This document shows positions 26,381 through 51,100 of a DNA stretch of 64,000 nucleotides, in pieces. The DNA is taken from positions 1-64,000 of the forward strand of contig JAIQGE010000023.1 in the NCBI GenBank assembly GCA_020072815.1, written 5' to 3'. Position numbers and translations under genes: made by a program. Origin of the DNA: Terriglobia bacterium (GTDB lineage: Bacteria; Acidobacteriota; Terriglobia; Terriglobales; Acidobacteriaceae). How positions within the stretch are numbered: the first letter of the stretch is position 1; each line of letters starts with the position of its first letter. The notes below the pieces were generated by a model. That model was given only the letters and a program-made list of their open reading frames with translations. It made no database searches and was not told where the DNA came from.

Positions 26381-26632
26381 TCAAGAACGCGCATGCCTGA
26401 CCATGGCCTTGATAATGACAGCGATAATCACGGCCACCAGTGCTATCCAAAGGACAGCCGCCAGTATTGAGCCGAATATCAGTGCAGCGACCATGACCGC
26501 CACGGCGATTACTGCCATTACAATCCCGATAATTAGCAGCTTGAACCGCTGCCAGAAGGTCAAAGGCGGAGATGTTCCCGGCGGACCTATGGGAGGCCGG
26601 GAGGAAATAACGATCTGCATCCTGCGGTTCAT
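26381..26632 (-). CDS. Small two-TM membrane protein, last gene of large block
   Basis: This 83-residue protein has a proline-rich soluble N-terminus (SSRPPIGPPGTSPPLTF) and two adjacent membrane helices (LLIIGIVMAVIAVAVMVAAL and ILAAVLWIALVAVIIAVIIK), ending in a basic tail. It follows the 595-aa gene by 70 bases in the same direction. I do not recognise a family. It may anchor or assist the large proteins of the block, but that is inference from position only. Confidence 0.65.
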   Translation of the reverse strand: MNRRMQIVISSRPPIGPPGTSPPLTFWQRFKLLIIGIVMAVIAVAVMVAALIFGSILAAVLWIALVAVIIAVIIKAMVRHARS

Positions 26633-26702
26633 CGCTCCAACTATTATATGGCGACTTCAGCACGGAATAAGGACATCGCTTTGGAGAGAGTGTTCCTTCC
26701 AT

Positions 26703-28490
26703 TTAGGCCATTTTCGCCTTCGCCATATCCCGAACAATGTCAAAGCGCAGGCCCGACCAGCCAGGACCACGACCTGGTTCAGATTTACGCGCCATCCAGA
26801 CAAATGTGCTTCCGTCGGATGAGCGGGTACGGCGGAAGTAGCGGTCCACCAGGACGCCGGCCCGAGAGAGCATCCGATCCGCCACAAAGAACGGATGCTG
26901 CGGTTCCAGAATCAGGGCATGCGCTTTCAAATTCACAAAGCCGGTGGACGTGGCTATTTCCATGGTTCCGCGGCGCAGAAAGAGTTCTTCCTGCGGTGAT
27001 TTTACCGGGACCATGGGAATCCAATTGTCCGGTACCGATGTTTCCAGCGTGTAATAAAGGCTGGGTCCGCCGGGCTTGGCCGTGGGCGGAGGCGGAGGAG
27101 GATCAGCTTTGATCCGTTGCAGATAGAGTTCATAGGCATCCAGAGGGGAATCCAGATCTCCCTGCAACCGATGCTCCACCGCCCAGGCCATTGCGGCAAG
27201 GTCGTCGCGAAGGAAGAGTACTTCTTCCAGCGCGTCGGCATCATCCACCACTCCCAGGGTCGGAGCCATGGCGATGAAGTCTGAACGGCGGCCATTGCCT
27301 GATAGTTTGAACATTGACCATGGTGTTTCGCCGGGATTGACCTGAGTCTGCTCAGAAGGGCGGATCAAGGTTCTAACGCCGAAGGTATCGGTGACCAGCA
27401 AGGTGGTCACCCGTTCCAAAGTACCAGTGGGAGTGGGAACCGGCACCCAGAACCAGTCATTGCCGTAAACCAGCGCAAACTCCATCACCAATAGCTTGGC
27501 CAGGTCCACATGATCGGCGTCAAGCTGGCCGAAATCGGTGACGGCATCCTCAAAATTCCACCAGCGCGGATCCGGCATCCCGCGAAATACCACATGATTG
27601 GGAAGGAAGTTGAAACTTACCGGCGTGATCTGCGCCGGGTTCGCCGCCGAGACTGGATTTGCTTGGGCGGTTTGCAGGTTGAATGAATACCAGTCGAGAT
27701 GCCCTCCGGGAAAATCCGGCGCGTTCAGAAGTAAGTTTTCTTCCGGCACAGGAGACCCCAGAGCGAAGTCGTATTGCAGCCGTTGCGATTGCCAGGCTGT
27801 ATCCTGGGCGGGCTCAGTGAAGAGAGATTTGCGGAAGGCGGCAAAATCAGCCAGCACCTTGGCCATCCCCGGATTGCCGGCTTCCGGAGGCAGAGGAATA
27901 GCCGGGGTCTGTCCGGCGGCAATGGCATTCACCGTTTGGTAAAGCGCTTCGCCATCGGTCACGCGACCCGCAGCAATGGAGCGAAACCGCAGGCAATCAT
28001 TGTTGGCGTAAGTTGTGTCGGCCGGCTCGGCAGCGATGGGAAAAGACTGGCGGAACGTCGCAATGACAGCATCAGGGCCGGCGATTCCTTCCTGGCGAAC
28101 CAGCGCTTCAAAGTACTGTCCGGACTGGACGGAGCCGCGCATCTGCAAGAGCACAGTTTCGCGCTCCACGTGGGCTTCCACGGGCAGCTTGGAATCGAGG
28201 GCCGTTGTTTTGGCATCATCGGGTCCGGGCCGGTAAGTGGTGATGCTGCGCTGCTCCGCGCCCATGGTGGCTTGAACCGGAGATCCCGCATCATCTCCCA
28301 GAAACTCGCCGATTTGCCATTGTCGCGCCAAAAACCACAGCGGGTCCCGTACCTGGGCCTGCAAGCTCCGCTGCATGGAGCCTTCGCGCGGGCGCGGCTC
28401 CAGCCTGGTCCAGGTGGTGATGGACGGAATCCTGATGACCTCTCTAGCGAATGAACTTAACGGCACTCGGAAACTCCTTGGCAACCGCAA
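26703..28490 (-). CDS. Uncharacterised large-block protein (about 595 aa, W-RLEPR family)
   Basis: The N-terminal part carries a striking conserved-looking block: TTWTRLEPRPREGSMQ followed by DPLWFLARQWQIGEFLGDD and AGSPVQATM. I have the impression of related unannotated proteins in Acidobacteriota, Myxococcota and Streptomyces but no known function. No signal peptide or membrane helix is seen. The middle contains FNFLPNHVVFRGMPDPRWW and a long alpha/beta region; the C-terminus is FVADRMLSRAGVLVDRYFRR. The start overlaps the end of the 1497-aa gene by some 20-45 bases (ATG at 28490 or GTG at 28469), showing tight coupling. Confidence 0.7.
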   Translation of the reverse strand: MRLPRSFRVPLSSFAREVIRIPSITTWTRLEPRPREGSMQRSLQAQVRDPLWFLARQWQIGEFLGDDAGSPVQATMGAEQRSITTYRPGPDDAKTTALDSKLPVEAHVERETVLLQMRGSVQSGQYFEALVRQEGIAGPDAVIATFRQSFPIAAEPADTTYANNDCLRFRSIAAGRVTDGEALYQTVNAIAAGQTPAIPLPPEAGNPGMAKVLADFAAFRKSLFTEPAQDTAWQSQRLQYDFALGSPVPEENLLLNAPDFPGGHLDWYSFNLQTAQANPVSAANPAQITPVSFNFLPNHVVFRGMPDPRWWNFEDAVTDFGQLDADHVDLAKLLVMEFALVYGNDWFWVPVPTPTGTLERVTTLLVTDTFGVRTLIRPSEQTQVNPGETPWSMFKLSGNGRRSDFIAMAPTLGVVDDADALEEVLFLRDDLAAMAWAVEHRLQGDLDSPLDAYELYLQRIKADPPPPPPTAKPGGPSLYYTLETSVPDNWIPMVPVKSPQEELFLRRGTMEIATSTGFVNLKAHALILEPQHPFFVADRMLSRAGVLVDRYFRRTRSSDGSTFVWMARKSEPGRGPGWSGLRFDIVRDMAKAKMA

Positions 28491-31400
28491 AATTTGTTGA
28501 AAGCGTGGCGCCCTGCAAGTTCAGCGCAAAATAAAGCGCGGGCAGAATCTGGCCGACCTCCTGCACGCTGTCCAGGTCAACGGTGCGGATCTTGGTCAGT
28601 TCGAGCGCTTCTTGAAGAATGCCGGTGACCAGATCGTCGTCCCACGTGTTCCTGTCATCCGGACAGACTGCCAGCAGCAGCGCTTGCGGCGCTCGCGCCT
28701 TGGGCTCTTCATAGTGGAAAGCGACAGCGGCATTTTCCTGGGTTGAGGGAATCCTTTCCGGCCACTCGTCAATGAGCAGGCCGGCATAGGAGTTTTGATT
28801 CACCGGATCACCCTGTGTGAGACAGGCAAAGGCCACTCGGCCCTTGGCGGGCGGGTTCGCCGGATCAATGCCCAGTCCCAGCCACTTGTCACCCGCGACG
28901 GTGGGCAGCTGTCCCAGCAAGAGCGCGGACGGCGACACTGCCTGCGCGCCCAGAAGTTGCGCCAGCGACAGCGCAGCATCCAAACGAGAGATACCCGGGC
29001 GCACATGAGCCAGTTGCAGCAGCCAGCGAGACGGCGCCTGCGGATCAGAGGCCACCAAAGCCGACGATTGCCCAAACGCGGATTGCAACGAAGCGAAGTC
29101 TGGAGGCGTGAAGCGCGGCAGAACGACAAAGTCGCTGCCGAAAACCGTCGTCAGCACCGTGATCAGATCGGCCGGCTGCGCCGTGGCGATGTTTATCTTG
29201 GAAGCATTGTCCAGGCGGTCCTGCAAAAGCTTGGCGACGGAAACGGCCTGGTCAGCCAGGCGCAGATCCGGGCCGCTGCCGGAGTAAGGAATTGATCCGG
29301 CAACGCCGAAGAAACTGCACGTCAGCAGCGCATCGCGAACCGGATCTGGCGCAGCGGGCAGGCCGGCCGCTTTGGTATTCAGGGTTGTCACGGCAGTTTG
29401 CAGATCTTGTGCCGCCTTCTTCGCGCGGGCGCGAAGTTCGGCAATATTCACTGCGCCTCCCGCGTTGGCAGCGGTGACCTCCGGAACAGTCAGGTCCTGG
29501 GGCGAGAGGGCGCGCGCGGAGCTGATCAGGGTGCGGAGTGACTTGGCGAGGAAGAAAGCGTCGGGAAAGAAAATAGAATCGGGTGGTGGCGCCGCCGGTT
29601 GAAAATCAATTTGCACGTTGGTGGCATTCGCGGGAAGCGCCGCGGCCAGCACGATTCTGTTCTCAAGTTCGCCTTTCTGCGCGTTCTGTCCCACGTCAGC
29701 CAGGGCCAGCACGTCCAGCGGGCCGACATTCAGATCGGCGAGCGAGATCTGCTGAATGTGGTCTCCGCCGGCATCGTGGTATGTCACGTCGCAAATGACC
29801 GTTGCAGGATCAGGAAGAAGCTGGCCCAGCCATGCGTCCAGCCAGGGCTCGGCGGCGGCCCGCGGATTCACGGGCACGCCACTCCAGGCCGGGTTGGCCG
29901 AGGGATTGCCGGCAAAAAGCAGGCCCACGCGATGGGTGAGGTCGAGTCCGCCTCGCGGTGTATTGACCACCTCAGGATTGGGCGGGCGGGCTCCTTTGGA
30001 GATCGCGTCCATCAGGGTGCCGGCCTGACCAAAATTTCCGCGGATGATCTGAAAGACGGCTTCCGAGATCGAGAGGTCCGCCAGCGCATCGGCGTAGTCG
30101 TCGATCGTGCGTAGCAATCCGATGATGGAATTCTGGTCGGCGCCGGCCCCCGGCAAGCCCGTTCCCCAATTCTGTCCGGGGGCGAGCTGGCCATTGTTCC
30201 AGGCCGTCCGCAAAGCCAGGCCATCCACCACGTTGGAAGCGGCCACAGATTCGCTGGGCTCGCTGGATGGTGTGAGCTTGTTGGCGACAATCGGAAAGCG
30301 GTCACGGAAGGGCTGCGCGTATTTATCGAGATTCAGCTGGTGCAGGCCCGTCTCAAAAAGATAGCCGAGCAGGGCGTTGAGGCTTTGTCCCTGTCGCACG
30401 CCGTCCAGCAAAAGCAGCGCGTTGCGCACGCGCTCGGAAGAAAGATCGATGGAGAGCAATCCTTCCTGGCTGGTTCCTTTGTGCGTCATGTAGCCATTGC
30501 GAAGCACAGCGGCAACGGAGGCCTGGGCAAATGACGGCGCGAAGATGAAACCTCCGTTGTCCTGCAGCGGCTGCACCGGGACCGGCAAATTGAGTTGGCG
30601 TTTGAGCGTGGCCGCGCGCCGGGTGTCCAGCAAGCGCACTGCTTCCAGTTCCGTGCCCTGGACAGCAGGGCGGCGCGCCGCCGGGCGCACCTCTTCCACC
30701 CAGCCAAAGCATCCCAGGTGGACGCCGTTGACTTTGGCGGAGCGCTTGCGATTCAAAATCGACGTGGCAACCGCGGTGACCCACACGTCAAGCCGGTGGC
30801 TGCAAGCATCCAGAGTCTCCGTCAGGAGGCGGTCAAGCTCGGCCGTGGAAAGCGCAGCCAGGCGATCCAGGCAGGCGCGCAGTTCGGCGAGTTGCGCGAA
30901 TGGGGATTGCGGCGGTGGATCGAGGTTGACCAGGTATTCAGCCCAGCTGAGCTGCGGATTGGGTATGGAAGGCCGCGCCAGCACTTCCCATACGCTGACC
31001 TTGGGCAGTGCCTGCGGCTGCGCCTGAGGCTGCACGCCGATGATTTCCTGTTCGCGTATCTGCGAGATCTGCAGGCGCGAAGCGTTGATCTCGGCAATTG
31101 TCGCCAGCTTGGCGTAGTCGAGCACCACGGACTGGCGCAGAATTTTATGGAGCAACGCCGTGGGCCTGGGGCCGGGATAGTTCTCTGCCTGAATGTCGCT
31201 GGCTGAGGCCTGCCGCAGCCACTGAATGTAATTCCCTTTTTTGCCGCCGCCCAGATCGGCTTCAGGTTTCAGCGGATCAGTTTCTGAGAGCGGTCCAGCC
31301 TGCACGGTGGGAAAAGGAACGGGAAATGAATTCTGGGCCAGGCCCAGATGAATCACGCGCGGGTCCCACTGGTTGTATTTGAAGGAATCCAGCAATGCCC

Positions 31401-32934
31401 GGCCGCGCGCCAGATGCTGCAACCACCACGGGTTGATGATGGGAATCTGTATGCCCTGGAAGGTAATGTAATTCCAGAGAAAATCATCTCCCAGGACCTG
31501 CCGTCCGCGGAAAGTCATGGAACTGGCGTCCATGCCCAGGACTTGAGCGAGTTGCGCGTCTGGATCGCCGGAGTTCTGCATGTGCGGCGCACCCGATGAA
31601 CTTGCCAGCCAGCTTGGCCAGAGGCGCAGAAGAAAATCCACCAGTTTCGGTTCAAACGATCCTGCCAGAAATGTCGTGTCCGTCGGGTAGCGGCGCAACG
31701 AGGTGACCGGAAGAACTCCGTAGGGCGTGCGCCCGACGCGCAACGCGGGGACAGGACCGCGCGGGATGGCGTTGTCAATCACATACTGGCGAGCGGTTTC
31801 AATCTGCTGCGGCGTGAAGACATCAGCCATCATCTGGCTGAAGAAATAACCGAGCGTCGCGGGCCAGAGAGCAATGAGCATGTCACGGCCATTGCGCTCT
31901 CCGGTCCCGTCCGCTGAGCCAACGTGCGCCATGGTTGCAGGATCAATGCCGATCAGCGCGGCAAAAGCGTTGCCGTCAGCGCTTGCGTCCTTGGTGAGGG
32001 GAGCGCCGCGTTCGACGGCGAAGCTGATTTCATAGTCCAGGTCTTTGCGCGAATAAGCTGAATCGGCATCGGGCGTGTTGTTGGTGGGAGCGCCCTGTTC
32101 CACCAGCGAGAAACCATCGGTATAGTGGTGCGCATTCAAAAGGCTGGACAAGGCAGCACTCCCCGGAACGCCGTGGGTGCGCAACCCATAGACAAAAATG
32201 CGATCGAAGCCGGCGGCCCGCTGCTGTGCCGTCAGCGGGATTTTCATCCCCATTCCGGCTTTGACGGCTGTATCGAAATCCACCAGCCATTGCATGCCCG
32301 GGTCAACCGGCTGGCCCGGCGGCAGCGCGCCGGCGCCAGGCGTCATGCCAACGGCGAGATCAGGCGTGATGGGGCCGCCGCGAAACTGCGTCTGTTGCGT
32401 TCCGGAAACAGCCACCACCGTCCAGGCATCAGGCAGTGCATCGGCAATCGCGGGTTTGTTCCACGAACTGGGCCGCTTTGGCGGCGTGGGATAGACCGGC
32501 TTTGGATTGGGATCGGTTCCCGCGGGCGTGGGAGGGACGGGCTGGAGCGCCAGGTTCGAGGGCGTCATGGTTTGGGCGATCCAGGCCGCGCGCGGCGAGC
32601 CATAGATTGAAGCCAGACCGCGCCACGGAGCCTTCACCGCGTCGGCGGAAGCCGGCGGATTTCCCGCGCGCCACACCGCGTCCCAGTAGGTTGTGCCGTC
32701 GGCAATTTCCTGGTCCGTAAGTTCCGGTTCATGGGAGTTGATGGCAATCTGGTCCGGATAAATCCGCAGCCAGAGTTCCGAGCGTCCGTCGGGACCATCC
32801 ATGAAGCGGGTTTCAATGTTCACCGGCAGAAAGAGAACAGGCGTCGCCGCGTCGAGCTGGTGAGGCTCGCCCACGACCGGCGGCGTTCCGGGAGCCGGGA
32901 TGGAAGGCACGTTCGGGTTTGGTTGTGTGCTCAT
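28444..32934 (-). CDS. Uncharacterised giant protein of large block (about 1496 aa)
   Basis: The start is the ATG at 32934, which overlaps the TGA of the upstream gene (ATGA). It gives MSTQPNPNVPSIPAPG. Early segments FLPVNIETRFMDG, WLRIYPDQIAINSHEPELTD and EIADGTTYWDAVWRAGNPP look like the hallmark of the family. No signal peptide, membrane helix or enzymatic motif is visible. The protein alternates helical stretches with Pro/Gln-rich loops, and the C-terminus (LLLAVCPDDRNTWDDDLVTG, ILPALYFALNLQG) is well structured. I do not know the function. Its co-translation with the neighbours argues for one complex. Confidence 0.75.
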   Translation of the reverse strand: MSTQPNPNVPSIPAPGTPPVVGEPHQLDAATPVLFLPVNIETRFMDGPDGRSELWLRIYPDQIAINSHEPELTDQEIADGTTYWDAVWRAGNPPASADAVKAPWRGLASIYGSPRAAWIAQTMTPSNLALQPVPPTPAGTDPNPKPVYPTPPKRPSSWNKPAIADALPDAWTVVAVSGTQQTQFRGGPITPDLAVGMTPGAGALPPGQPVDPGMQWLVDFDTAVKAGMGMKIPLTAQQRAAGFDRIFVYGLRTHGVPGSAALSSLLNAHHYTDGFSLVEQGAPTNNTPDADSAYSRKDLDYEISFAVERGAPLTKDASADGNAFAALIGIDPATMAHVGSADGTGERNGRDMLIALWPATLGYFFSQMMADVFTPQQIETARQYVIDNAIPRGPVPALRVGRTPYGVLPVTSLRRYPTDTTFLAGSFEPKLVDFLLRLWPSWLASSSGAPHMQNSGDPDAQLAQVLGMDASSMTFRGRQVLGDDFLWNYITFQGIQIPIINPWWLQHLARGRALLDSFKYNQWDPRVIHLGLAQNSFPVPFPTVQAGPLSETDPLKPEADLGGGKKGNYIQWLRQASASDIQAENYPGPRPTALLHKILRQSVVLDYAKLATIAEINASRLQISQIREQEIIGVQPQAQPQALPKVSVWEVLARPSIPNPQLSWAEYLVNLDPPPQSPFAQLAELRACLDRLAALSTAELDRLLTETLDACSHRLDVWVTAVATSILNRKRSAKVNGVHLGCFGWVEEVRPAARRPAVQGTELEAVRLLDTRRAATLKRQLNLPVPVQPLQDNGGFIFAPSFAQASVAAVLRNGYMTHKGTSQEGLLSIDLSSERVRNALLLLDGVRQGQSLNALLGYLFETGLHQLNLDKYAQPFRDRFPIVANKLTPSSEPSESVAASNVVDGLALRTAWNNGQLAPGQNWGTGLPGAGADQNSIIGLLRTIDDYADALADLSISEAVFQIIRGNFGQAGTLMDAISKGARPPNPEVVNTPRGGLDLTHRVGLLFAGNPSANPAWSGVPVNPRAAAEPWLDAWLGQLLPDPATVICDVTYHDAGGDHIQQISLADLNVGPLDVLALADVGQNAQKGELENRIVLAAALPANATNVQIDFQPAAPPPDSIFFPDAFFLAKSLRTLISSARALSPQDLTVPEVTAANAGGAVNIAELRARAKKAAQDLQTAVTTLNTKAAGLPAAPDPVRDALLTCSFFGVAGSIPYSGSGPDLRLADQAVSVAKLLQDRLDNASKINIATAQPADLITVLTTVFGSDFVVLPRFTPPDFASLQSAFGQSSALVASDPQAPSRWLLQLAHVRPGISRLDAALSLAQLLGAQAVSPSALLLGQLPTVAGDKWLGLGIDPANPPAKGRVAFACLTQGDPVNQNSYAGLLIDEWPERIPSTQENAAVAFHYEEPKARAPQALLLAVCPDDRNTWDDDLVTGILQEALELTKIRTVDLDSVQEVGQILPALYFALNLQGATLSTNFAVAKEFPSAVKFIR

Positions 32935-34308
32935 GGTGGTGGCAACATCAGGTCGGCGTGAATCAGGATGCGAAAAGGCAGACGCAACAGGATGTAGGCC
33001 GTCTGGGCGCTGTTCACACCCCAATTGTTGTTGGGATCGTCGGGGCTGTAGTCCGGCAGGGCGGGGTTTCCGCCGCCGGGTGGAATGGAAACTCTCACCG
33101 GCTTCAACTTCGACGAAAGGAAGTCCGGCAGTTTTACGTTCTGCAAGACCAGCGAAAACACCTGGGAAGCAAGCCGCCAGGGGCTGTTGGCGATGGTCAG
33201 TCCACGCGTCGTGTTGCCCAGATCGGGCAGCTTGAAAATTCCGCCGCCGCCCGTAGCCTTGAGCTTGTGTGCACCGTCATCAACTACTTCGAAATTGGTC
33301 CAGGCAAGCTCGGCCCAATGGGCGATGGGCGTGGTATCTTCATTCGGCTCAAGCCCAAATCGCGGCTCGGAAGGCTGTTGCTGGAAGACGAAGAAGAAAC
33401 CTTCCGGAGATTGCGGAGTGCCGCCGCGCGCGTCGTCAAGGCCCAGGTTGAATCCCAGGAACGTGATGTCAGTGGGTAGTGTGCCGCGGAAAATCGGATA
33501 ACGCTCGTCCGTCTCATCCAGCACGCGTGTCCCATCTGCGGCGCGCTTGGCTTTGCCGGCGTAGACAATGGCGTTGGGATAGCGTTTAAACAGTTCGCCG
33601 CGCACCAGGAGCACTACGTTGTTCTGAACCACGTCCGTGCGGTTGGGATGCTGGCCCAGCGGAAGCGGCTTGGGCCAGGTGTGAATCAAAGGAATATCTT
33701 TCAAGAGTTCGTGCAATTTTGCCGGATCGGTGGGATCGCCCTTCTGGGGGACGTAAGCCTTCACGTCCCAGAACTGGCGGAAGTAACTTCCCCGCTGGTC
33801 GGTGGGGTAATCATTCCACAAAAGCTGGCGCGCCATTTCGTGATTGAGGCCCACCATGTAGCCTTCGATGAAGGCATGGTTCGCGAGCAGAAGTCCCAGG
33901 GTTTCCGGCGGCACAAGTTCGACGCCCGGCAGCACGTAGTCAGCGGAGAGATCGCGCAACGGGGCATACATGGGCTGGGGAAATTCCGGCGCGGCCATGA
34001 TCTGTTCCAGCGGATCGACGGCGAACCAGGAAAAACCGGGTGAAAACGCGATGAGCGACTGCACGCGCTTCGGCACGGTGACCACCGGATCAAGGCGCGC
34101 CAGCAGCGTGGTCTTGATACCGGCAAGATCAAGCGCCGGCGCCAGCGGCGGATCGACGGGAAATACCTGAAAATAGGTGAAGAGGTCAGTCGTCGCGCTG
34201 CGGAACGCCGCAGCCTGCGCGGAATCGGCGCCGGCGCCGCCGGAGGGAGGCGCCGTTCCCGGCGTGGTAATGACGAAGCTTGGGCCCGGAGGCGCCTGCG
34301 CGACGGCC
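32931..34308 (-). CDS. C-terminal part of a split approx. 1046-aa large-block protein
   Basis: From about 34308 this frame carries the sense AAVAQAPPGPSFVITTPGTA and later LFTYFQVFPVDPPLAP, ADYVLPGVELVPPETLGLLL, FIEGYMVGLNHEMARQLLWN and DYPTDQRGSYFRQFWDVKAY. These read like the continuation of the protein that ends in frame upstream. Removing one T near 34309 joins the two. The stop overlaps the ATG of the giant gene. I recall unannotated proteins over 1000 residues carrying both halves, which supports one gene. The longer frame up to 34514 translates the antisense-like membrane region and is unlikely to be the true start. Confidence 0.65.
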
Positions 34309-36072
34309 GCAGAGCTTCTTGATCGCCGGCCAGATCGCGGCCGCGGCTGCCGCGGCCACCGCCAGAACAACCAACGCTGCCCCGGGTCCGGCAAAAACTC
34401 CGACCAGCACAACCACCAACAGGAGGAGCAGCAATAGCGCGAGCAGGATCCACTTCCAGTACTTCGCCAGCCACTTAACCCAGGGAGCGACGAAGTTATT
34501 GGAGATCGTGTCAATTGAGACCATGCCGCCCGGCGGCTTGGGGGCGGGAACGATCGCGATGTCGCCGGAATTCACCCGCGACAGCAACGCGGGGCGTGAA
34601 TTGGGCGAGGGCCCAAGCCTTCTGCGCGGACGCGTGACCCGGCGGAAGGTGCCGGAGAGCAGGCGCTCCGGCACGCGGCTGCTTCTTACCGTGGCCAGGA
34701 CTGTCCGGGGACTGGCGAAAAGGCGCGCGTGCAACGGTGCAGTCACCGTCATCAAGGTTTCCGGCAGGGCTGGCTGCAATTCAAGCACATGCAGTTGCTG
34801 TAAGGCGGCGCGGGCAAGCTGCGCCTGGCGTAACAATTCATTGGCTTTGCGAATACCATCCACCTGCTGCCAGGCGGAAGCCATCAATTGCGTGCGCTCA
34901 TCCTGAATCACCTGCGTGCCCATGCCGGCGGCGCTGCGGTTGCGCGGATCCAGATTCATGTCGTTCACCCATCCTGGCGCAGTGCGGTCCACGCTCTGCT
35001 CGGCGGCGTGCCAGCGGCCGTAGATGGGAGGAGCAATCACAGGATCGTCGGGAGCCGGGTTCGCGGGATCATCCGTGGAGACCTGAGGATGATTGATGAA
35101 CGTCTGCACATCAGTCTGGAAATTCGTTTTGTTCGGATCGTTCCACGGGGTGGGCTGTGTGAGGACGCTGTGCAGCGCGCCCTCCAGGCCCAGCGGCGGT
35201 CCGGCGGAACGAATATGCGGCGCGGGCGTGGTTACGTCCATCGGACGCTCACCCACCTCGGCCGGCAGGACGCGCGGCGTCAACCGGCGGACGAGCGATT
35301 CAAAATCGCCCTCATCGCTGGTGTTGAATTCAAACTGATAATAGAAAGGCAGCGACAACGGAGCATGAGTCGCGTTGGTCCAGGCGGGATCCGTGGTTGC
35401 GACGCCGGAGACGTCCTGGCTCAGTCCTGCCTGCCTGCCTATTTCGAAAGCCGGCACAAGAAACACCGTGTAATGGGTCTCAGGGTCGAGCCGTCGCGGA
35501 CACAGCAGACGAGAGATCACGTTTCCCGGAGCGGTGTTCATGGAGTCGGTCAATGGCGTGTCACCGCTCACCTGTACGTGGCCCCAGTTGGAAGAATCGG
35601 AAAGGTCCTGCAGCGCGCTCAGGGTCTGGACTTGCACCACCGGCAGAGGATTCGGCGCGACGGAAGGAAGCTTGAATTCATCTGGCTTTAACGCAATCAA
35701 CGCCAGCCAGGGACGCAACTGGTCTCCGTTGGGCGCTGCGGGAGTGAACAGCCAGGGCAGATCGGGCGTGTCGAATTCGATGCCGCAAAGGTAATTTGGT
35801 TCGTAGTTGACGGTGAAGTTTCGCGGTTCGGTGCGAATGATATGCCGCGGATCAATGCCGATGACGTCCCCGGGACCGAACATCTGCACCTGCATGGGCG
35901 TGGGCTGCACGTTGGTGGTGGTGCTGCCTTGCTGGACCGAGAGAGAGAGTTGCACACTCAGGCTGGCGCGTCCGGGCAGGGTTCCGTTGTTGTCGGGGTT
36001 GCTGGCGCTGGCCCCGACGCCGCGCCGTGCCCAACTCAGGAAGTGATAGCGGCCAAGAGGCGGATCACTCAT
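34186..36072 (-). CDS. N-terminal part of the split large-block protein, with two TM helices
   Basis: The ATG overlaps the TGA of the DUF6603 gene (ATGA). The N-terminus MSDPPLGRYHFLSWARRGVG and the segment EFDTPDLPWLFTPAAPNGDQ, LRPWLALIALKPDEF look like family hallmarks. Near residues 525-575 there are two hydrophobic helices (WILLALLLLLLLVVVLVGVF and AALVVLAVAAAAAAAIWPAI). Behind these the frame becomes arginine-rich nonsense (SLRRRRRRFRAGC) and stops at 34186, while the next frame carries sensible protein. The natural product is therefore probably one 1046-residue protein with a central membrane hairpin. Confidence 0.7.
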   Translation of the reverse strand: MSDPPLGRYHFLSWARRGVGASASNPDNNGTLPGRASLSVQLSLSVQQGSTTTNVQPTPMQVQMFGPGDVIGIDPRHIIRTEPRNFTVNYEPNYLCGIEFDTPDLPWLFTPAAPNGDQLRPWLALIALKPDEFKLPSVAPNPLPVVQVQTLSALQDLSDSSNWGHVQVSGDTPLTDSMNTAPGNVISRLLCPRRLDPETHYTVFLVPAFEIGRQAGLSQDVSGVATTDPAWTNATHAPLSLPFYYQFEFNTSDEGDFESLVRRLTPRVLPAEVGERPMDVTTPAPHIRSAGPPLGLEGALHSVLTQPTPWNDPNKTNFQTDVQTFINHPQVSTDDPANPAPDDPVIAPPIYGRWHAAEQSVDRTAPGWVNDMNLDPRNRSAAGMGTQVIQDERTQLMASAWQQVDGIRKANELLRQAQLARAALQQLHVLELQPALPETLMTVTAPLHARLFASPRTVLATVRSSRVPERLLSGTFRRVTRPRRRLGPSPNSRPALLSRVNSGDIAIVPAPKPPGGMVSIDTISNNFVAPWVKWLAKYWKWILLALLLLLLLVVVLVGVFAGPGAALVVLAVAAAAAAAIWPAIKKLCGRRAGASGPKLRHYHAGNGASLRRRRRRFRAGCGVPQRDD

Positions 36073-39000
36073 GCTGTCACCTCGTGCACGGGAAGAATCT
36101 GCAGGTTGCTGCTCTCTTCAGGATGAAGAGCAAGATAGGAATCGAGCGCGGCGCGCGCGTGGAAGTAGGTGCCGCCCGAAGACGAAACAATATCGCTGCG
36201 CACCGAGAGGTCTTCCACGTGCGCCACAACATAAGCAGGGTCCTGGGTGGTGACGGCCGGCCCGGCCGCTCCGGTCCCGTATTTGAAGAGCCCGGTGTTC
36301 TTCAGCGGAGACGCAAAACCCGCGCCCTGGGCGCTGAGGGCGAGATGAACATCCGCCGCCATGGCGTAGCGCCGTGCAAAGCGGGAGAAGCCGGTGGGCT
36401 CGTCAATGTAGCGCTCTTCGTAGAAAACGGTGCGCGGTGAATCCGCTCCGGAGACGACTTCCGAGGAGCCGATCTTAATCCCGGCATCGTATCGTTCGAA
36501 GCTGGGATGGCTCACCTTGTCGGCATCGCTCAGGGTGAGGAACTGGCCCGGAGCGAAGTAGTCCTGGAAATTCTGTTTGTTCTCTTCGTGCCCGTCGATC
36601 TGGACGTCGCTGATGGCGAAGTAGTCTCCGTCAGAGGGCGTTGCATTGCCATACCGGGTGATGGGCAAATCGAGCGGAACCACGTTCTCGCGGACACTCA
36701 GCGTGCCCATGGGATGAACGCGCAGAGTTTTGTCGTCCGGTTTGGGCGTGGAGAGCGTGACTGCCTGGGTGGTCCCGTCCGGCAGCGCGGTGCTCCAGTT
36801 GCGCGGGTCCTGAAACGCCGGCAGCAGGTCGGGCAGGACAGGCTTTTGCGGGAGAATCGCCGGCGTGCTGTCACCCCAACTGATATCCAGAGATGCGCTG
36901 ACGCTGAAAAACAGAATGTGGATGCTGGCATCGCCGTGCAGATGCCAGGGACGGGGGCCGGAAAAAATACCATCAACGCTCAGGCCGCACAGACTAACGC
37001 CTTCGAACGAGACATCGAATCCGGCGGAGAAGTCAAACTCAAAAGAAAAGGGCGAGAAGATGATCAGGACGTCAAAGCCCAGGTAGCCGTGAATGGTGAA
37101 GCCGGCGGCGGAAGCATAGGCCTCGACATTGGAGCCGAACTGCAACGAATTTGAGGTAATGGCGAAATAGCTGTTCGCGCTGATGCGAGGATTGTCGCCG
37201 TCGCCAATGCTGACGGTGAGCCGGTGCATGTTGGGGACATCGAGTCCGGCGGTACTGAAGTGCGGGTTAAACCCTCCTAGGGAGAAGAGGAAGTTCGGAT
37301 TGTCGCCCCAGGAGAGCCGCAATGCCAGATCGCCAGCCAGCGAGAAGATCAGGACGCGGGAATCGTAAAGCGAGCCATCGATGGACAGCGTCTTGGCGCC
37401 GAAATCAAGGATGCCGAGCACATCGATGTGGAGCTCGATCAATGCGGCTTCGGTGCTGGGTAAGCCCGCATCAATGAGTCCCAGCAACACTAGGCGCACC
37501 GGGTCTGGGACTTCCAGAATCACTCCCACTGCCAGCGTGATCAGGGTAGGAGTTCCCCAGCCAATTTCCAGCATGGGGCCGAATAGATAGCGGCCTTCCG
37601 CCGGTGGGAAGAAGTTTTCTATGTTGCTGATGATCTGCGGCGCGTTGGCGATGGGATCGGGCGGAAACAGGACAGAGTTGAGCGTGTGCGCACGGAAGCC
37701 CGCGTGCAGCGCGTCAGTATTCATCGTGCGATTTACGCCGCCCAGTCCGCCCACTCCGTTCAACGTAAATCCGAACCCCAGTTGGATCGGCGGGAAATCA
37801 AAGGTGATGATCAGCAGGAAAGAAAAGCCGTGAGAACCGTCGGGCAGGATGGTATCCAACACGCCGATGATCTTGACCTGAACAATCTCCGCCAGGGAGA
37901 GATCGAAAACTCCGGCGTATTGACCTTTATCCGGATTAAATGAGATATAGCCGCCACCAGCCACTACGCCGGCATCGATGGCAAGACCGAGTCCATTGGG
38001 CGGCTTGAAGTCAATGGCAAGATTGGCCGGGCCGAGATTGCCGCCATGGTCAGGAAATGTAATCAGTCCTTTGACGCCTACGCGGTCCACCGAGGCTTCA
38101 ATCGGTCCCAGCGTAAGTCCAAGGGCGGCGGAAATTTCAATGGGAAGTCCGCTGCTGCTTGCGCCCGCGACCAGATACAGCGTGGGCAGTGTGATCGGCC
38201 CCAAAGTCAGATGAAGAGGAAGATCGATTTCCAGTTGGGCGCCGCCGGTGATGTGGATACCGGTATCGGGCGCCCAGCTGATGCCGAGATCAAATCCAGC
38301 CTCTACATGAACGCCCGAAAGCACCGTGGCCAGGAAGCCATCGGCATTGGACATGTCGATGACCACTTTCCCGCCCTTGATGTTGATTTGCACCGTCGGT
38401 TCGGCGGTGGCAGTGCCTGAGCCGGAGTCCCAGGTGATCTTCAGCCCCATCCCAAAAGTGAAGGAATCCGTTTGCAGGCGGCTTCCGCCAGTTTGTCCAA
38501 TAATGATGATGGGATGGGTTGCATCCGCGCCCTGGGCAAGAAGGTCACTTTCCAATTGTGCGGTGAGAGCCGCCGACGGATGAAGAGTCACGTTGGCTGG
38601 GGGATCAATCTTGGCGGCAAGGCCGCCAGTCAACGTTCCCGTGGCCGAAATATGCACCGACCACACACCACCGAGGGGCAGTGTGAAATCAAAACCGCCC
38701 GGTAGCGTAGTCTTGAGCGTGGCCGTGAGTCCGGGAGGAGTGGTCTGGACTGACAAAAAGGAAGAATCCAACGCTGGCGGCAGACCTGGGGCAATGGTGG
38801 CCGAGGAAACACCAAGCAGCTGCAAGGATGTGCGCAGGCGCGGTATCAAAAGCGTCCCATCAAAACCAGGAGCGCCCCATTGATAAAGATTCTTCAGCAA
38901 CTGGTCCGGTTTAGTGAACAGGTCGCCCAAGCGCGATAGCTGCAACTTGCGTGCCGTAAAAGGAGGATGGGCTGGGTCGCCGGAAACTCCGGGATTGGGA

Positions 39001-39509
39001 ATGTAGTCGAGAAAGCCCAGCAGGTTTCCGACACCGACTACGCCGGGCTGTAAGTTCTCTAAATAGGAAATGAGGAGATAGCTGAGCAGATTCGACGGCA
39101 AGTTCTGGGCAAAAGTATCGACCTCTGCGGCTCTCAGCCCTGGCAAGCCTCCGGAGATGTTGTGCAACTCAGTTCCAATCTGCTCCAGGGCTGTAATAAT
39201 CGCACCGATCTCGGTGATGAGCTGGGCGCCGGCACTGAGGATTCCTGCTTCATTGTTACTGTCAATCGCAGTGGCAAGCTGGGTAAGAGTGGCGGGCAAA
39301 GCGCCGGCTGCGCCTGCTCCGGCGTTGAGAGCATTCACAAAGCCGGGCTGAAGAAGCTGCGGTGGGAATTGCAGTCCGAGCTCAGCAAAAAGGGCGATGA
39401 CCTGACCGGACGCAAGCCTGTCCTTAAGAGGCTGAAGGGCCAGCCCAATCTGTCGTGCAACGGTTTCGAGAGTGCCTGCTGTTCCGGGCATTTCTGGATT
39501 CGTCTCCAT
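36069..39509 (-). CDS. DUF6603-type beta-rich giant protein (1146 aa)
   Basis: The central part, about residues 570-880 (GFGFTLNGVGGLGGVNRTMN, NIENFFPPAEGRYLFGPMLE, LFSLGGFNPHF, GFTIHGYLGFDVLIIFSPF), matches what I know as DUF6603. Residues about 240-880 are almost entirely amphipathic beta strands with regular turns, without a signal peptide. Residues 1-150 are helical; the last 220 residues are a different domain (FYEERYIDEPTGFSRFARRY). Long beta-rich folds like this can form hydrophobic grooves or tubes, but the function is unknown. It is the first large gene of the block; its stop overlaps the next ATG. The ATG at 39491 is an alternative start. Confidence 0.75.
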   Translation of the reverse strand: METNPEMPGTAGTLETVARQIGLALQPLKDRLASGQVIALFAELGLQFPPQLLQPGFVNALNAGAGAAGALPATLTQLATAIDSNNEAGILSAGAQLITEIGAIITALEQIGTELHNISGGLPGLRAAEVDTFAQNLPSNLLSYLLISYLENLQPGVVGVGNLLGFLDYIPNPGVSGDPAHPPFTARKLQLSRLGDLFTKPDQLLKNLYQWGAPGFDGTLLIPRLRTSLQLLGVSSATIAPGLPPALDSSFLSVQTTPPGLTATLKTTLPGGFDFTLPLGGVWSVHISATGTLTGGLAAKIDPPANVTLHPSAALTAQLESDLLAQGADATHPIIIIGQTGGSRLQTDSFTFGMGLKITWDSGSGTATAEPTVQINIKGGKVVIDMSNADGFLATVLSGVHVEAGFDLGISWAPDTGIHITGGAQLEIDLPLHLTLGPITLPTLYLVAGASSSGLPIEISAALGLTLGPIEASVDRVGVKGLITFPDHGGNLGPANLAIDFKPPNGLGLAIDAGVVAGGGYISFNPDKGQYAGVFDLSLAEIVQVKIIGVLDTILPDGSHGFSFLLIITFDFPPIQLGFGFTLNGVGGLGGVNRTMNTDALHAGFRAHTLNSVLFPPDPIANAPQIISNIENFFPPAEGRYLFGPMLEIGWGTPTLITLAVGVILEVPDPVRLVLLGLIDAGLPSTEAALIELHIDVLGILDFGAKTLSIDGSLYDSRVLIFSLAGDLALRLSWGDNPNFLFSLGGFNPHFSTAGLDVPNMHRLTVSIGDGDNPRISANSYFAITSNSLQFGSNVEAYASAAGFTIHGYLGFDVLIIFSPFSFEFDFSAGFDVSFEGVSLCGLSVDGIFSGPRPWHLHGDASIHILFFSVSASLDISWGDSTPAILPQKPVLPDLLPAFQDPRNWSTALPDGTTQAVTLSTPKPDDKTLRVHPMGTLSVRENVVPLDLPITRYGNATPSDGDYFAISDVQIDGHEENKQNFQDYFAPGQFLTLSDADKVSHPSFERYDAGIKIGSSEVVSGADSPRTVFYEERYIDEPTGFSRFARRYAMAADVHLALSAQGAGFASPLKNTGLFKYGTGAAGPAVTTQDPAYVVAHVEDLSVRSDIVSSSGGTYFHARAALDSYLALHPEESSNLQILPVHEVTA

Positions 39510-39602
39510 CCCGAAAACTTAAAATAAGGGCCCTAAATCAGCTCAGCTGTGCCTGTTAGCTGGAACCAGGACATCCATGGCGACAGCCTGAGGTAGAAAC
39601 CT

Positions 39603-41231
39603 TCACGTTGTTACCTGCATTTGCCAAGCGGCCAGCATTTCTTGATACGAGCGTCCAGCCAGAGATCGCAACTCCGGCCCAAGTTTTTTCAAATCATCGA
39701 CAAGGCCGGGGCTTCCATACCGATATAGAACCGCCGCAAAGCGATCAAAACAATCGCTCAGGCTTCTTCCTTCAAGCTGCGCGGGAAACCGGCGTCCTGG
39801 ATCCAAGAGGCATTGAAGAGCCTCGCTGATCCACGCTGGGCCACGAATGCGCCGCCAAATAGCAGCGGTACGTTTATTGGCATTCACCAAAGTGCGTATT
39901 TCTCCAAAATGACGGTGAAGGGCCGCATCGAGTTGGCAGCCCAACTCGGTGTGCTCAAGTTCGGCACGGGCCGTTTGCATCCGCTTGCGAATGACCGCCG
40001 GTTCTGCAGGAAGCTCCGCAAATGCATGGGGCGCGGCGGCTGGCTTTGGAACTGTCTGCACCCCCGGAAAAGTCGCACTATCAGCAACGAGTACACCAAG
40101 GCGCGTTTGTACTTCGGCGATCGGGCAGGCACCAACACTGCTGTTCGGCGGATCTGAATCCGCTGGTACACCATAGACCAGGCCGATGACTTGGTGACTG
40201 TCGTTCAGGACTGCCGACCCGGAATCCCCCCGCAAAGCGAAGAACTTGGTGGGGTCCTGCGGCTCAATATTCAGTTGATTAAAGAACTTGAGGTGCTTGG
40301 TCACCGTACGGTCCAGCGATTCGTAAGGCAGGTGTGCTGTCGTGGTGATGGCTACAAGCCAACCTTTTGTCAACTCTGTCCTTATCCCCCGTTTGTGCAC
40401 GGCATAGATGGGCACTCCCGTCCCGCTGGAAAAATCAAAGAGCGCCTCGGATCCATCGACAGCATGAGCTCCTGCGATCTGCTCTGTCGTGATCGAGTCT
40501 CCTACTCCGCTGGCAATGACTTCTGCAGACCACTGCACTTCAGGGTCCAGGGTTACGAATCCAGCATCTACCCCCGTCGGCAGCGGTGGCGGCGGGTTTG
40601 CAGCTTCGTCAACACCTGTCAACTGCACATCATGATCGACGTGGCCGATTGTGTGATCGAGGCTTTTACAGCACAACGATGACGTATCCGGCTGTCCGAC
40701 TGCTGCACCGTCGTGGGTTGTAGTGATGGCCACGTCCAACAGCACATGCGCATTTGTCAACGCGACAGCCTTCTTGCTTGGATCATTCGTCGCCTGGTTG
40801 ATCGCAAGACACCCCAGCGTGCCTTTGGCCCGACTGATCGTGAACTGGCCCGGGTTGGCGCCGGCTGTCGTGCGCGTCATGCCGTCGGAAACTATCTCAG
40901 CGCCGCCGAGCACGTGTGGATAGTGATTATCGTCGGTGTCCGTTGACGGCGCTGCCGACGGACGAAGCAAAGGAGACTCTACAACGTCTGTACTGACGCC
41001 ATCAATCACGGTGGGAACTGTTTCGTTGGGCTTAAGTTCGCCCAGCCCCTTCTTTTTCACTACATGTACCACGATCGCAAACTCCGTCGTTCGCCTGCCT
41101 CCTGTCCTCTTGGGTTGCACGCTGACGCTATGCACACCGGGAAGCTTGAGAAGTTCTTCTTCATGGGCGATCTTGACCTGCAGTACCCTGGCGAGGGCCT
41201 GCTGCACCTCTGGGCTGTAGCGCTTTGTCAT
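39603..41231 (-). CDS. Trypsin-like serine protease (542 aa)
   Basis: The N-terminal 80 residues (LLKLPGVHSVSVQPKRTGGR, TEFAIVVHVVKKKGL) form the small domain shared by all three proteases here. The catalytic domain has the histidine in ALTNAHVLLD, a likely aspartate in GVDAGFVTLDP and the serine in ALRGDSGSAVLND. Behind it lies a helical C-terminal part (RKRMQTARAELEHTELGCQL...HRHFGEIRTLV) that the 41505 paralogue also has. No signal peptide is seen, so it may act in the cytoplasm or be exported by another route. It stands 93 bases before the DUF6603 gene in the same direction and may process or regulate that system. Confidence 0.85.
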   Translation of the reverse strand: MTKRYSPEVQQALARVLQVKIAHEEELLKLPGVHSVSVQPKRTGGRRTTEFAIVVHVVKKKGLGELKPNETVPTVIDGVSTDVVESPLLRPSAAPSTDTDDNHYPHVLGGAEIVSDGMTRTTAGANPGQFTISRAKGTLGCLAINQATNDPSKKAVALTNAHVLLDVAITTTHDGAAVGQPDTSSLCCKSLDHTIGHVDHDVQLTGVDEAANPPPPLPTGVDAGFVTLDPEVQWSAEVIASGVGDSITTEQIAGAHAVDGSEALFDFSSGTGVPIYAVHKRGIRTELTKGWLVAITTTAHLPYESLDRTVTKHLKFFNQLNIEPQDPTKFFALRGDSGSAVLNDSHQVIGLVYGVPADSDPPNSSVGACPIAEVQTRLGVLVADSATFPGVQTVPKPAAAPHAFAELPAEPAVIRKRMQTARAELEHTELGCQLDAALHRHFGEIRTLVNANKRTAAIWRRIRGPAWISEALQCLLDPGRRFPAQLEGRSLSDCFDRFAAVLYRYGSPGLVDDLKKLGPELRSLAGRSYQEMLAAWQMQVTT

Positions 41232-41504
41232 CGCTCGCCCTGGGGCAGGCTTAAGTGCCGAACTTTATCATTAGCAATGAAAAGGCTGGTCAGACGGGAA
41301 TAGCGATAATGACTTAGAGGGTCTTGCACTTTCTCTTGCTCCTAAAACACTTCAGAAAAACTTCTTTACCCAACCCGATCGCGAACTGCTAGTCTTGTTT
41401 ATTAAGTGTTAGTTGCCCGCGACACGTTACAACCAAAGTGCAAAAAAATCAAGAACATCCGGGCGCAGCAGTGTTCTGGATTACCGTGTCTATCAACCGT
41501 TAAT

Positions 41505-43046
41505 CTACGCGTCAGCCTCAAAAACTTCTAAGAGTGCTGCATCCTTCAAGCATTCAACAACTTCACCATAGGATTTAGAGGTCACTTCTGCCGCCAGGGC
41601 AGAGATCACCTTCAAATCGGCGACCAGCCCCTGGCTTCCATAGCGCGTCAGCACACGACTCATGGCGGCAATACGTTCCGGCAGCGACATTCCGGATACA
41701 AATTCCGCAAAGGGTTTTTCCGGGCAACGCAGGCCGCTGAGCACGGCCTTAAGCAGGTCGGCCCCCGCAACTCGCTGCCAGACAGCGGCAACACGTTTTC
41801 TGGAGTCGATGAGTGCCCGCACCTCGACAACATGTCGGGAAATCACCTGGCTCAGGCGCTGTCCCATGGACGTCGCCAGTACCTGGTCCCGTGCGCCGAT
41901 AAGAAGCTGTATGTCTTGCTCGGTAGGCTCCAGCGTTTCGATTGGGACATGGGGTTGGTCCACTGCGCTGAAGGCATGGGGGGCTGGCGCAGGGGCCGGG
42001 GCTGGCGCAACTGTAGCGGAGGAAGTAACAATCTCAAGGTCCCAGTTCGCTTGAAAGTCGTTAAAGGCATCGTCAATCCGGCACACCACGGCAAACTGTC
42101 TGGAAGAACCTTCAAATCCGGTTAATATGCCAGCAATCTTCCCACCGGCGGCAAGTACGGGGGAGCCGGAGTCGCCATGATCGGCTATCGGCGTATTGGC
42201 CGCGCCGCTCGCCTCGACGATAATTCTGTGAAAATAGTTAACCGTTATTGCAGGGCCGTTACTGGTTTCGCGGCAGCTTGAGATGCCATCGCGGCCCACA
42301 TTCACGACGACTCCCTGCCGAACCTCCGCGGTGCGAAAGCCGCGCATTTGCAGGGTCTGGCCCAGCAGTCCATTGATCTCGCCCGTAGTGAGCGCTCCTG
42401 TGATCGGCCCTATGTCCTTTACTTCAGCTTTCACATCCACGCACTTGTCTATCTGGATGATGGCTACGTCGTGGCTCTGATTCGCGTCAACCACTGTTCC
42501 AAAAACTGTGGCCCAACATTTGGAACAGCATGAGCGGTCATCATCATCGTTTGGTTGTCCAACCCTTCTGCTTGCCTGCACCGCCACCACAGGATCGCCA
42601 CAACCGCCCACGACGTGTGCCGCTGTGAGCACAACATTCTTGTTGGCTCTTCTGGATTTGGCGAAACAGCCGAGTGTTCCATCATGGGGTTGGGTGACCG
42701 TCGAGTTCGGCTGAGGATGCGTGATCGTGGTCCAATTGATCTTGCTCCCCCCAATGAGAGGCCGGTAGCGCGCAGTGTCATCGCAGCACGACCCAACCGC
42801 GATTTCAATCACGTCGGTTTTGATTCCTTCAATCTCATCCGGTACGGTTTGTTGGCTGCTGAGCGCTGAAGCCGGCTTTTTCGCAAACACATATACAGTG
42901 ATAGCGAGTTCATCGGTTCGCCGGCCCTGGACATACCGGCAACCCACGCCTGTGCCGTGAACACCTTCTATTGCCATGAGACGTTTTCGTGCGCTCTCTT
43001 TCATGTCCAACGCGCGGGAAACCGCGTCGACATCAGATATATGCAT
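41505..43046 (-). CDS. Trypsin-like serine protease paralogue (513 aa)
   Basis: The start is the ATG at 43046 behind AGGAGG, giving MHISDVDAVSRALDMKESAR. Residues 1-85 are the shared N-terminal domain (GVHGTGVGCRYVQGRRTDEL, AITVYVFAKKP). The triad is visible as LTAAHVVGG (His), HDVAIIQID (Asp) and DHGDSGSPVLAAGG (Ser). Cysteines in GGCGD and DRSCCSKCW could form disulfides or bind metal. The C-terminal half is helical and similar to the downstream protease (LPERIAAMSRVLTRYGSQGL). It overlaps the truncated paralogue upstream by 14 bases. Confidence 0.87.
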   Translation of the reverse strand: MHISDVDAVSRALDMKESARKRLMAIEGVHGTGVGCRYVQGRRTDELAITVYVFAKKPASALSSQQTVPDEIEGIKTDVIEIAVGSCCDDTARYRPLIGGSKINWTTITHPQPNSTVTQPHDGTLGCFAKSRRANKNVVLTAAHVVGGCGDPVVAVQASRRVGQPNDDDDRSCCSKCWATVFGTVVDANQSHDVAIIQIDKCVDVKAEVKDIGPITGALTTGEINGLLGQTLQMRGFRTAEVRQGVVVNVGRDGISSCRETSNGPAITVNYFHRIIVEASGAANTPIADHGDSGSPVLAAGGKIAGILTGFEGSSRQFAVVCRIDDAFNDFQANWDLEIVTSSATVAPAPAPAPAPHAFSAVDQPHVPIETLEPTEQDIQLLIGARDQVLATSMGQRLSQVISRHVVEVRALIDSRKRVAAVWQRVAGADLLKAVLSGLRCPEKPFAEFVSGMSLPERIAAMSRVLTRYGSQGLVADLKVISALAAEVTSKSYGEVVECLKDAALLEVFEADA

Positions 43047-43605
43047 CTTCCGCCTCCTTAGGCTGGTAAGCTGCGTCGGAATTGGTCCTATATTCCGGGC
43101 GAGCGGCCCAGCATTCCGGCTGGCCAAATCTCTTTTCTGCACCAATAGCGATACTCGGATCATCGCACCCGGCCGCCAGATGTCCGTTGGTGAGGATCAG
43201 ATTCTTCCCGGTTCTCCTGGCGCGTGCGATGCAACCGAGCGCGCCGGAATTGAAATGTATGACCGTAGTGTTGGGGGCTGGATGCTCGGTGGCGGTGTAT
43301 TCAAGCTGGCTGCCACCAACCAAAGGGCGGTAGTGGCCGATATCGTCAAAGCATTCCGCGAGAGGAGATTTCACTACGTCAGTCTTAATTCCTTCGATTT
43401 CGACAGGAATGACTTGTTCGGCTGAGAGCGTATTCAGTGGCAGTTTCTTGTGCACGTAGACCACGATGGCCAATTCATCCGTTCGCTTACCGGAGACAAA
43501 CTTGCAACCCACGCCGTGCACCTCTGCAAACGACAGGAGGCGGTCGCGAACACGTTGTTTCACTTCTATAGCTCGGGATACTGCCTCCGTATCCGATACG
43601 TGCAT
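43033..43605 (-). pseudogene. Truncated trypsin-like protease paralogue
   Basis: From the ATG at 43605 (MHVSDTEAVSRAIEVKQRVR) this 190-residue frame repeats the N-terminal domain of the next gene (AEVHGVGCKFVSGKRTDELA, IVVYVHKKLP) and the catalytic histidine region ILTNGHLAAGCDDPS. It then ends after about 30 unrelated residues. The aspartate and GDSGS serine are missing, so it cannot be a protease. It looks like the 5' part of a tandem copy whose rest was deleted, leaving the ribosome site of the next copy inside its end. An accessory role for the N-terminal domain is possible. Confidence 0.7.
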
Positions 43606-47667: not shown

Positions 47668-47682
47668 CCGGGGACGAAGAGT

Positions 47683-51098: not shown

Positions 51099-51100
51099 AA

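Follow-up and report, generated by a model that had tools for sequence, protein, structure and literature searches.

A conserved core of four giant genes with an exchangeable upstream enzyme in bacteria and archaea: a candidate membrane-active carrier

The gene block

The subject of this work is a block of giant genes on the minus strand of a 64,000-nucleotide stretch of DNA from a Terriglobia bacterium (Acidobacteriota; assembly GCA_020072815.1, contig JAIQGE010000023.1, positions 1 to 64,000), which is called the window throughout and comes from a 5.29-Mb genome. In the direction of transcription, the block consists of two protease genes (43163-41505 and 41231-39603), four genes designated A, B (present in two frames), C and D, and a short open reading frame (ORF) of 83 amino acids (aa). 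A first-pass annotation, made from the sequence letters, had proposed A to D and the 83-aa gene as a candidate undescribed system; all of its ORF positions were confirmed, and the extent that it gave to the block proved right for A to D, whereas an interchangeable upstream partner and a C-terminal domain shared by many such partners had been overlooked.

Gene A (36069-39509, on the minus strand like all features of the block) encodes a 1146-aa protein (P0001) of the DUF6603 family (Pfam PF20248, E 3e-132), which scores 442 bits against a curated cut-off of 27 bits and covers profile positions 1-501 of 502. Its predicted structure comprises a helical N-terminus (residues ~13-231) and a long amphipathic beta-meander (residues ~248-878). 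The first frame of gene B (34186-36072) carries an N-terminal domain and a hydrophobic helical hairpin recognised by hydropathy (34303-34455, residues ~540-590 of P0002), and the second frame (32931-34514) carries the C-terminal domain, the similarity of a relative starting at about residue 110 of that frame. Gene C (28444-32934; 1496 aa from the start used here and 1526 aa from the first TTG) and gene D (26703-28490; up to 595 aa) have no known domain. Four-base ATGA overlaps join A to B (36069-36072) and B to C (32931-32934), as originally noted, and the overlap between C and D, first put at 20-45 bases, was found to reach up to 47 bases.

The two upstream protease genes are part of the same unit, and both products are proposed cargo. 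The gene directly 5′ of A (39603-41231) encodes a trypsin-like protease with serine-protease motifs, a Trypsin_2 match under the Pfam cut-off (E 0.0098) and, by hydropathy, no N-terminal hydrophobic segment; the second gene (41505-43163) matches Pfam Trypsin (E 7e-9). All three catalytic motifs are present by pattern in both proteins. Each of them ends in the shared C-terminal domain, as delimited by sequence family comparison (39621-39986, residues 416-537 of the first protease, and 41544-41897, residues 423-540 of the second). Within the unit of the window, Pfam recognised only DUF6603 in A and trypsin in the two upstream genes.

The split of B, also reported in the first-pass annotation, is real in this assembly. 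A genome of the same genus (L014/L017) has an intact B of one 1062-aa frame, 91-93% identical to that of the window, and relative to it the window lacks 50 base pairs (bp) directly behind the hydrophobic hairpin, near position 34312. Because this deletion shifts the frame, B is read in two frames; the 50-bp gap rules out a one-base sequencing error as the cause, and an assembly fault may be responsible. In Rhizobium (L009), B and C are each annotated as two consecutive genes.

Conservation of the core

One genome per species was scanned for relatives with a profile built on the C-terminal portion of B, and the best 80 of 400 were examined; since these were chosen by B similarity, the sample favours loci with B. 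Bacteria and archaea alike keep the core genes together and in the same order: A-B-C-D lie in sequence on one strand in 59 of the 80 loci, which belong to 14 named phyla, one of them archaeal. Eighteen of the other 21 loci are cut by a contig end and L092 is cut at its 5′ end, which leaves two real exceptions, namely L029, with no D within the 21 kb examined, and L056, a remnant. In L092, C and D are fused in one reading frame (L092:4656-11162). All 80 loci together represent 17 named phyla, two of them archaeal, and the A-B junction is an overlap of exactly four bases in 39 of 68 loci. A repeated gene order in distant phyla, which had been set beforehand as the test of a system, was therefore found.

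Co-occurrence in whole genomes was scored on A (DUF6603), B and D. Among 199 genomes of the window's phylum, DUF6603 is present in five, D in four and B in three, and all of them occur together in three (the window genome, G112 and G133); G228 and G134 have only a DUF6603 giant of ~3300 aa, accompanied in G134 by a weak B-like neighbour, and G212 has only D, in two frames. Three of 61 close relatives carry D, all from the same genus, and one of these also holds the remnant L016. Among 247 genomes of the phylum of Chitinophaga (L052), DUF6603 lies above the cut-off in 12 and D is present in six, full B being found in exactly the same six (G435 has a weak partial B), and in these six genomes A, B and D are located on one contig within ~14 kb. 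Both the recurring order and the coincidence of B and D lend good support to the original view of a single undescribed system, and neither of the outcomes named in advance as speaking against it (homologues found mostly alone, or assignment to unrelated known functions) occurred for B and D; lone or remnant copies were seen in L010, L016 and L117. In L016, from a genome of the same genus, C and a broken D are present while A and B are missing, and L117 has D alone, in two frames.

A tree of A was built with FastTree, leaving out the near copies L014, L063 and L089 and rows shorter than 950 aa, with the L116 row cut at its likely start and the long branches of L009 and L012 flagged. It requires 32 changes of phylum, compared with a minimum of 14 and with 39.0 for shuffled labels, so that the unit seems to move between phyla, a pattern that is suggestive and no proof of transfer. 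In addition, D was found in 14 plasmid records, seven of which were inspected and six of which hold A-B-C-D (Streptomyces, Gemmatirosa, Salinigranum, Rhizobium, Natrinema and Paraburkholderia). In the seventh (L010), a full-length D stands by itself, with genes for IS5 transposases a few kb away. In the downstream flank, recurring families are present in at most five loci.

One record labelled as a bacteriophage from human faeces (L013, MT835531.1) contains the end of A followed by B-C-D and may be a bacterial contig; as the record is marked unverified, it was not accepted as evidence of a phage origin. Viral contigs scanned with A1 and A6 yielded no relative.

The interchangeable upstream enzyme

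The position upstream of A is occupied by enzymes of different, unrelated families. A census of 63 loci that contain A with 1200 bp or more of upstream sequence, in which classes were assigned partly by similarity to a scanned member, placed the adjoining gene in one of seven enzyme families in 44 loci: trypsin-like (19), subtilisin (10), M64 peptidase (6), phospholipase D (4), tyrosinase (2), PhoD-like phosphatase (2) and M14 carboxypeptidase (1). Most of the trypsin-like partners were classed without a Pfam scan of their own, and the one scanned, L022, is under the Pfam cut-off. Three uncharacterised families account for eight further loci (X1, without a known domain, in five, DUF2515 in two and DUF4056 in one) and 11 partners have no class, so that 19 of the 63 are not assignable to an enzyme. 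A PhoD-like partner is also found in L008 and, by eye, in L115 and L116, and the partner in L006 is a peptidoglycan-binding protein. Ten partners without a clear family gave nothing usable in NCBIfam, and the L034 partner has no match in the PDB. A cargo-A gene fusion considered in L116 was rejected, the long frame being read as a spurious extension.

Pattern matching recognises the serine motif in 26 of 28 trypsin-like partners and in 8 of 10 of the subtilisin-like kind. In 58 adjacent partners, the N-terminus is always free of a 19-residue segment with hydropathy above 1.8. With 58 of 71 rows of the A tree labelled by partner class and 13 without label, 21 changes of class are required, the minimum for 11 states being 10 and shuffled labels giving a mean of 34.3 and a lowest value of 30; this implies that partners are inherited but often swapped. 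Sister rows joined by forks with a support of 100 can have different partners, such as trypsin in L058 and subtilisin in L084, or trypsin in L045 and tyrosinase in L060. Chance neighbours as an explanation of the enzyme slot were rejected on the basis of the flank families, the placement of the C-terminal domain and the tree test.

This domain, of ~124 residues, was found in 31 proteins of 26 loci as well as in both window proteases, and lies at the end of the partner in all 19 trypsin-like and in five of the ten subtilisin-like loci (L017-L096). Its invariant columns are W44, G49 and L95 (numbered on the first row of 21 aligned), and Pfam gave no match to it in the window proteases P0007 and P0008. 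A search of 24 core-bearing genomes returned 21 matches, which fall in 18 genomes and, as placed by contig ranges, always at the core locus; the six genomes whose partner is without the domain gave no match. In the 199 genomes of the window's phylum, the two proteases of the window are its only occurrences. A domain that is attached to two unrelated enzyme folds and was seen only beside the core is most simply read as a putative docking domain for the core.

Structure and hydropathy of the core proteins

An AlphaFold2 model of A, based on 64 sequences, has a mean predicted local distance difference test (pLDDT) of 79.8 and a predicted template modelling score (pTM) of 0.48. It shows helices to approximately residue 231, followed by some 34 strands to residue 878. 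The two faces of these strands differ in mean hydropathy by 3.22, versus 1.28 ± 0.17 when residues are shuffled within strands, and a few strands, above all those at 560-594, are without such a difference. The best Foldseek matches of A in the PDB are LptD, ApoB100 and the FimD usher (E 3e-4 to 5e-4), with template modelling (TM) scores normalised to A of no more than 0.15 among the 50 matches listed, and VIA gave Z-scores of up to 13.3, mostly to porins, at a root-mean-square deviation of ~12-13 Å. Together, the amphipathic strands and these matches make A look like a large sheet that is hydrophobic on one side.

The model of B was calculated for the intact relative (L017:8189-11377, 1062 aa) from 69 sequences (mean pLDDT 83.3, pTM 0.66) and contains two mixed domains that flank a helical hairpin with a peak Kyte-Doolittle hydrophobicity of 3.6. 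A central hydrophobic segment above 1.8 is present in 57 of 71 near-full-length B proteins, and the central hairpin originally described for the window protein is accordingly confirmed there but is not universal. No clear match of B to a solved or viral fold was seen (best values: Foldseek against the PDB, E 0.29; VIA, Z 6.0; viral library, E 0.099). No internal hydrophobic segment was detected among 65 frames of D. As judged by hydropathy, no N-terminal 19-residue segment above 1.8 occurs in A (69 frames), C or D, and among B proteins it is confined to one contig-cut fragment. These features agree with the early description of the products as membrane-linked and rich in beta structure, in that A has an amphipathic meander and B a hairpin, whereas the conduit or shell stays a conjecture.

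In the libraries searched, the core matches nothing but DUF6603. When profiles of A, B, C and D were compared with the PDB sequences, nothing reached E <0.001, the best matches being designed coiled coils (E 0.017); NCBIfam and PHROGs returned nothing usable for the core, and Pfam found nothing consistent in 66 D and 26 C proteins. Pfam gives no function for DUF6603, no published mention of DUF6603 or PF20248 was found in a literature search, and wider word searches found no publication on such a gene cluster in the parts of the literature that they reached.

A second kind of DUF6603 cluster

DUF6603 itself is also found in a different kind of cluster, in which the A protein (A′) is longer. 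Six DUF6603 neighbourhoods (L114, L120 and L122-L125) are without C and D in the stretch examined, and all of them contain a protein designated B′. Compared by profile as a group rather than singly, the B′ proteins match B over its N-terminal part (97%, E 1e-10), and the hairpin is absent from B′ in all six examined. A family designated C′ (1222-1407 aa), with no detectable relation to C, is present in five of the six (not in L114). Upstream genes of this second type encode a metallo-beta-lactamase-fold protein (L122 and L121) or a DUF4135 protein (L120), and the others have no clear partner. The existence of this second type suggests a wider class with the same plan. DUF6603 also occurs in 1300-3400-aa proteins of other clusters, including giants of ~3300 aa (L113:655-10749 and L114:1243-11094), the former with weak PGAP1 and abhydrolase matches under the cut-off. 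A downstream gene in one second-type cluster (L122:981-3095) has a Peptidase_S74 intramolecular chaperone domain and a weak match to a Dit-like phage tail protein.

Possible function of the unit

We tentatively propose that A to D make up the core of a single membrane-active machine, which would carry a docked and swappable enzyme that has no leader, and give this reading a little under an even chance. The enzyme would dock onto the core through its C-terminal domain, and the core would assemble into a large complex that has neither signal peptides nor a recognised ATPase; the lack of both speaks less for a classical secretion machine than for a particle that is assembled in the cell and is then either released or anchored. 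Contact with a lipid membrane would be made by A through its amphipathic sheet and by B through its hydrophobic hairpin, C and D may act as a scaffold or as a link to the cargo, and the docked enzyme would be brought by the complex to a membrane or through it. The membrane of another cell, reached after release, would most likely be the target. We infer docking, complex formation, membrane contact and target, and the notion of a delivery device draws on an analogy with toxin complexes.

Several observations weigh against this carrier model. The pTM of A is 0.48, so that the overall shape (barrel, belt or groove) is not fixed by the model; 14 of the 71 near-full-length B proteins are without a hydrophobic segment, and the hydropathy threshold is unspecific, since frames of A (46 of 69, slightly) and of C (9 of 80) also pass it internally. 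The link between partner and core is a purely genetic one, and L074 and L082 have no partner-sized frame on the same strand within ~1.5 kb. Only two partner classes carry the shared domain, half of the subtilisin-like proteins being without it, and partners that are without it would dock, if at all, in another way. The histidine pattern is found in only 9 of 28 trypsin-like partners, so that some of them may not be fully active. The L044 partner (L044:2650-4560), for which no Pfam family was found, begins like a lipoprotein, unlike the 58 partners mentioned above. Finally, no immunity gene was recognised in flanks that were not annotated systematically.

One alternative is a membrane-bound complex of the producing cell, in which B anchors by its hairpin, A, C and D form a scaffold and the enzyme acts at the cell's own membrane or surface with nothing being delivered. 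Such a complex would be consistent with the hairpin in most B proteins, the scarcity of N-terminal hydrophobic segments, the lack of a recognised secretion gene and the presence of the unit in Actinomycetota, Bacillota and one archaeon. However, it leaves unexplained the B proteins without a hydrophobic segment (14 of 71), a core of more than 12 kb is much for an anchor, and cytosolic work is ill-suited to tyrosinase, M14, M64 and phospholipase D, which are usually extracellular; we consider it unlikely. A lipid-loaded particle, in which A would wrap lipid like apolipoprotein B, B would insert its hairpin as oleosins do, and the enzyme would ride along, might be read from the strands of A that are hydrophobic on one side and from Foldseek, which lists ApoB100 (E 4e-4) among the matches of A, next to LptD and pilus ushers. 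Given that the top matches are as much membrane barrels and that the TM-scores normalised to A stay at or below 0.15 in the 50 listed, this appears distinctly unlikely.

Anti-phage or other defence, with the core as sensor and the swappable enzyme as an effector that harms the infected cell, would fit the patchy distribution (three to five of 199 genomes in the window's phylum), the spread across phyla, the combination of a conserved core with a swapped enzyme and the leaderless proteases. On the other hand, no nucleotide-binding or sensor domain was found in A-D of the window, 66 D and 26 C, and partners such as tyrosinase, M14 and peptidoglycan-binding proteins would be odd as defence effectors; a defence role appears very unlikely. 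That unrelated genes are merely held together by shared regulation or plasmid transfer, with enzymes as chance neighbours, as their presence on six of seven inspected plasmid records (14 with D) might suggest, is highly improbable: the order is kept in 14 named phyla, C and D are fused in one locus, the shared domain was seen nowhere but beside the core, the distribution of partner classes on the tree is far from that of shuffled labels, and any downstream family recurs in at most five loci.

An extended form of the carrier model would be a new class of enzyme delivery in bacteria and archaea, a four-protein membrane-active particle that would serve at least seven unrelated enzyme families via the C-terminal docking domain or an equivalent, spread across phyla and include a second sub-type with its own C protein and with partners such as metallo-beta-lactamase-fold enzymes; taken as a whole, we regard this as rather doubtful. 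What draws attention to the unit is a core of four giants whose order is kept from Acidobacteria to haloarchaea, together with an enzyme that is swapped and a C-terminal domain dedicated to the unit. As a delivery or display machine, the unit would add a class without a contractile tail, a recognised secretion ATPase or an Rhs cocoon and would provide the first testable role for DUF6603; as a defence system, it might represent an unlisted type.

Comparison with known systems

Tc insecticidal toxin complexes are large leaderless assemblies with an Rhs/YD-repeat cocoon and TcA-type domains. The core would resemble them as a very large leaderless multi-gene complex with a membrane-entering part and a swappable enzyme. 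In contrast to them, no Rhs/YD-repeat or other Tc domain was found by Pfam in A-D of the window, 66 D and 26 C, a scan that beyond the window covered, for A and B, three long DUF6603 frames; moreover, the enzyme of the core is a separate gene, and two enzyme classes have their own C-terminal domain.

The long amphipathic beta-meander of A recalls LptD, pilus ushers and apolipoprotein B. Unlike LptD and usher barrels, A has no N-terminal hydrophobic segment in 69 frames (by hydropathy), and the core is also found in Actinomycetota, Bacillota and archaea, which have no outer membrane of the LptD/usher kind.

Extracellular contractile injection systems and type VI secretion systems with PAAR-linked cargo are similar in combining a conserved apparatus with interchangeable effectors that bear an adaptor domain (PMC8651086). 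They differ in that the (incomplete) gene tables of L006, L008 and L009 name no sheath, tube, baseplate, PAAR or AAA gene, the other flanks comprising 0-5 kb of unannotated sequence, and in that only the four core genes recur.

Other features of the window

For the 83-aa membrane ORF downstream of D (26381-26632, minus strand), initially taken as a fifth component, L014/L017 of the same genus is the only genome with clear relatives; the next match among the loci examined has an E-value of 1.3. Being confined to one genus, it is not a component of the conserved system but a genus-specific neighbour. Elsewhere in the window (46648-51844), four co-directional genes nearly touch or overlap; one of them encodes a ResIII/DEAD helicase, and two of the three others were scanned, without a Pfam match. 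The region from 26381 to 43163 has a G+C content of 0.594, compared with 0.556 in the remaining window.

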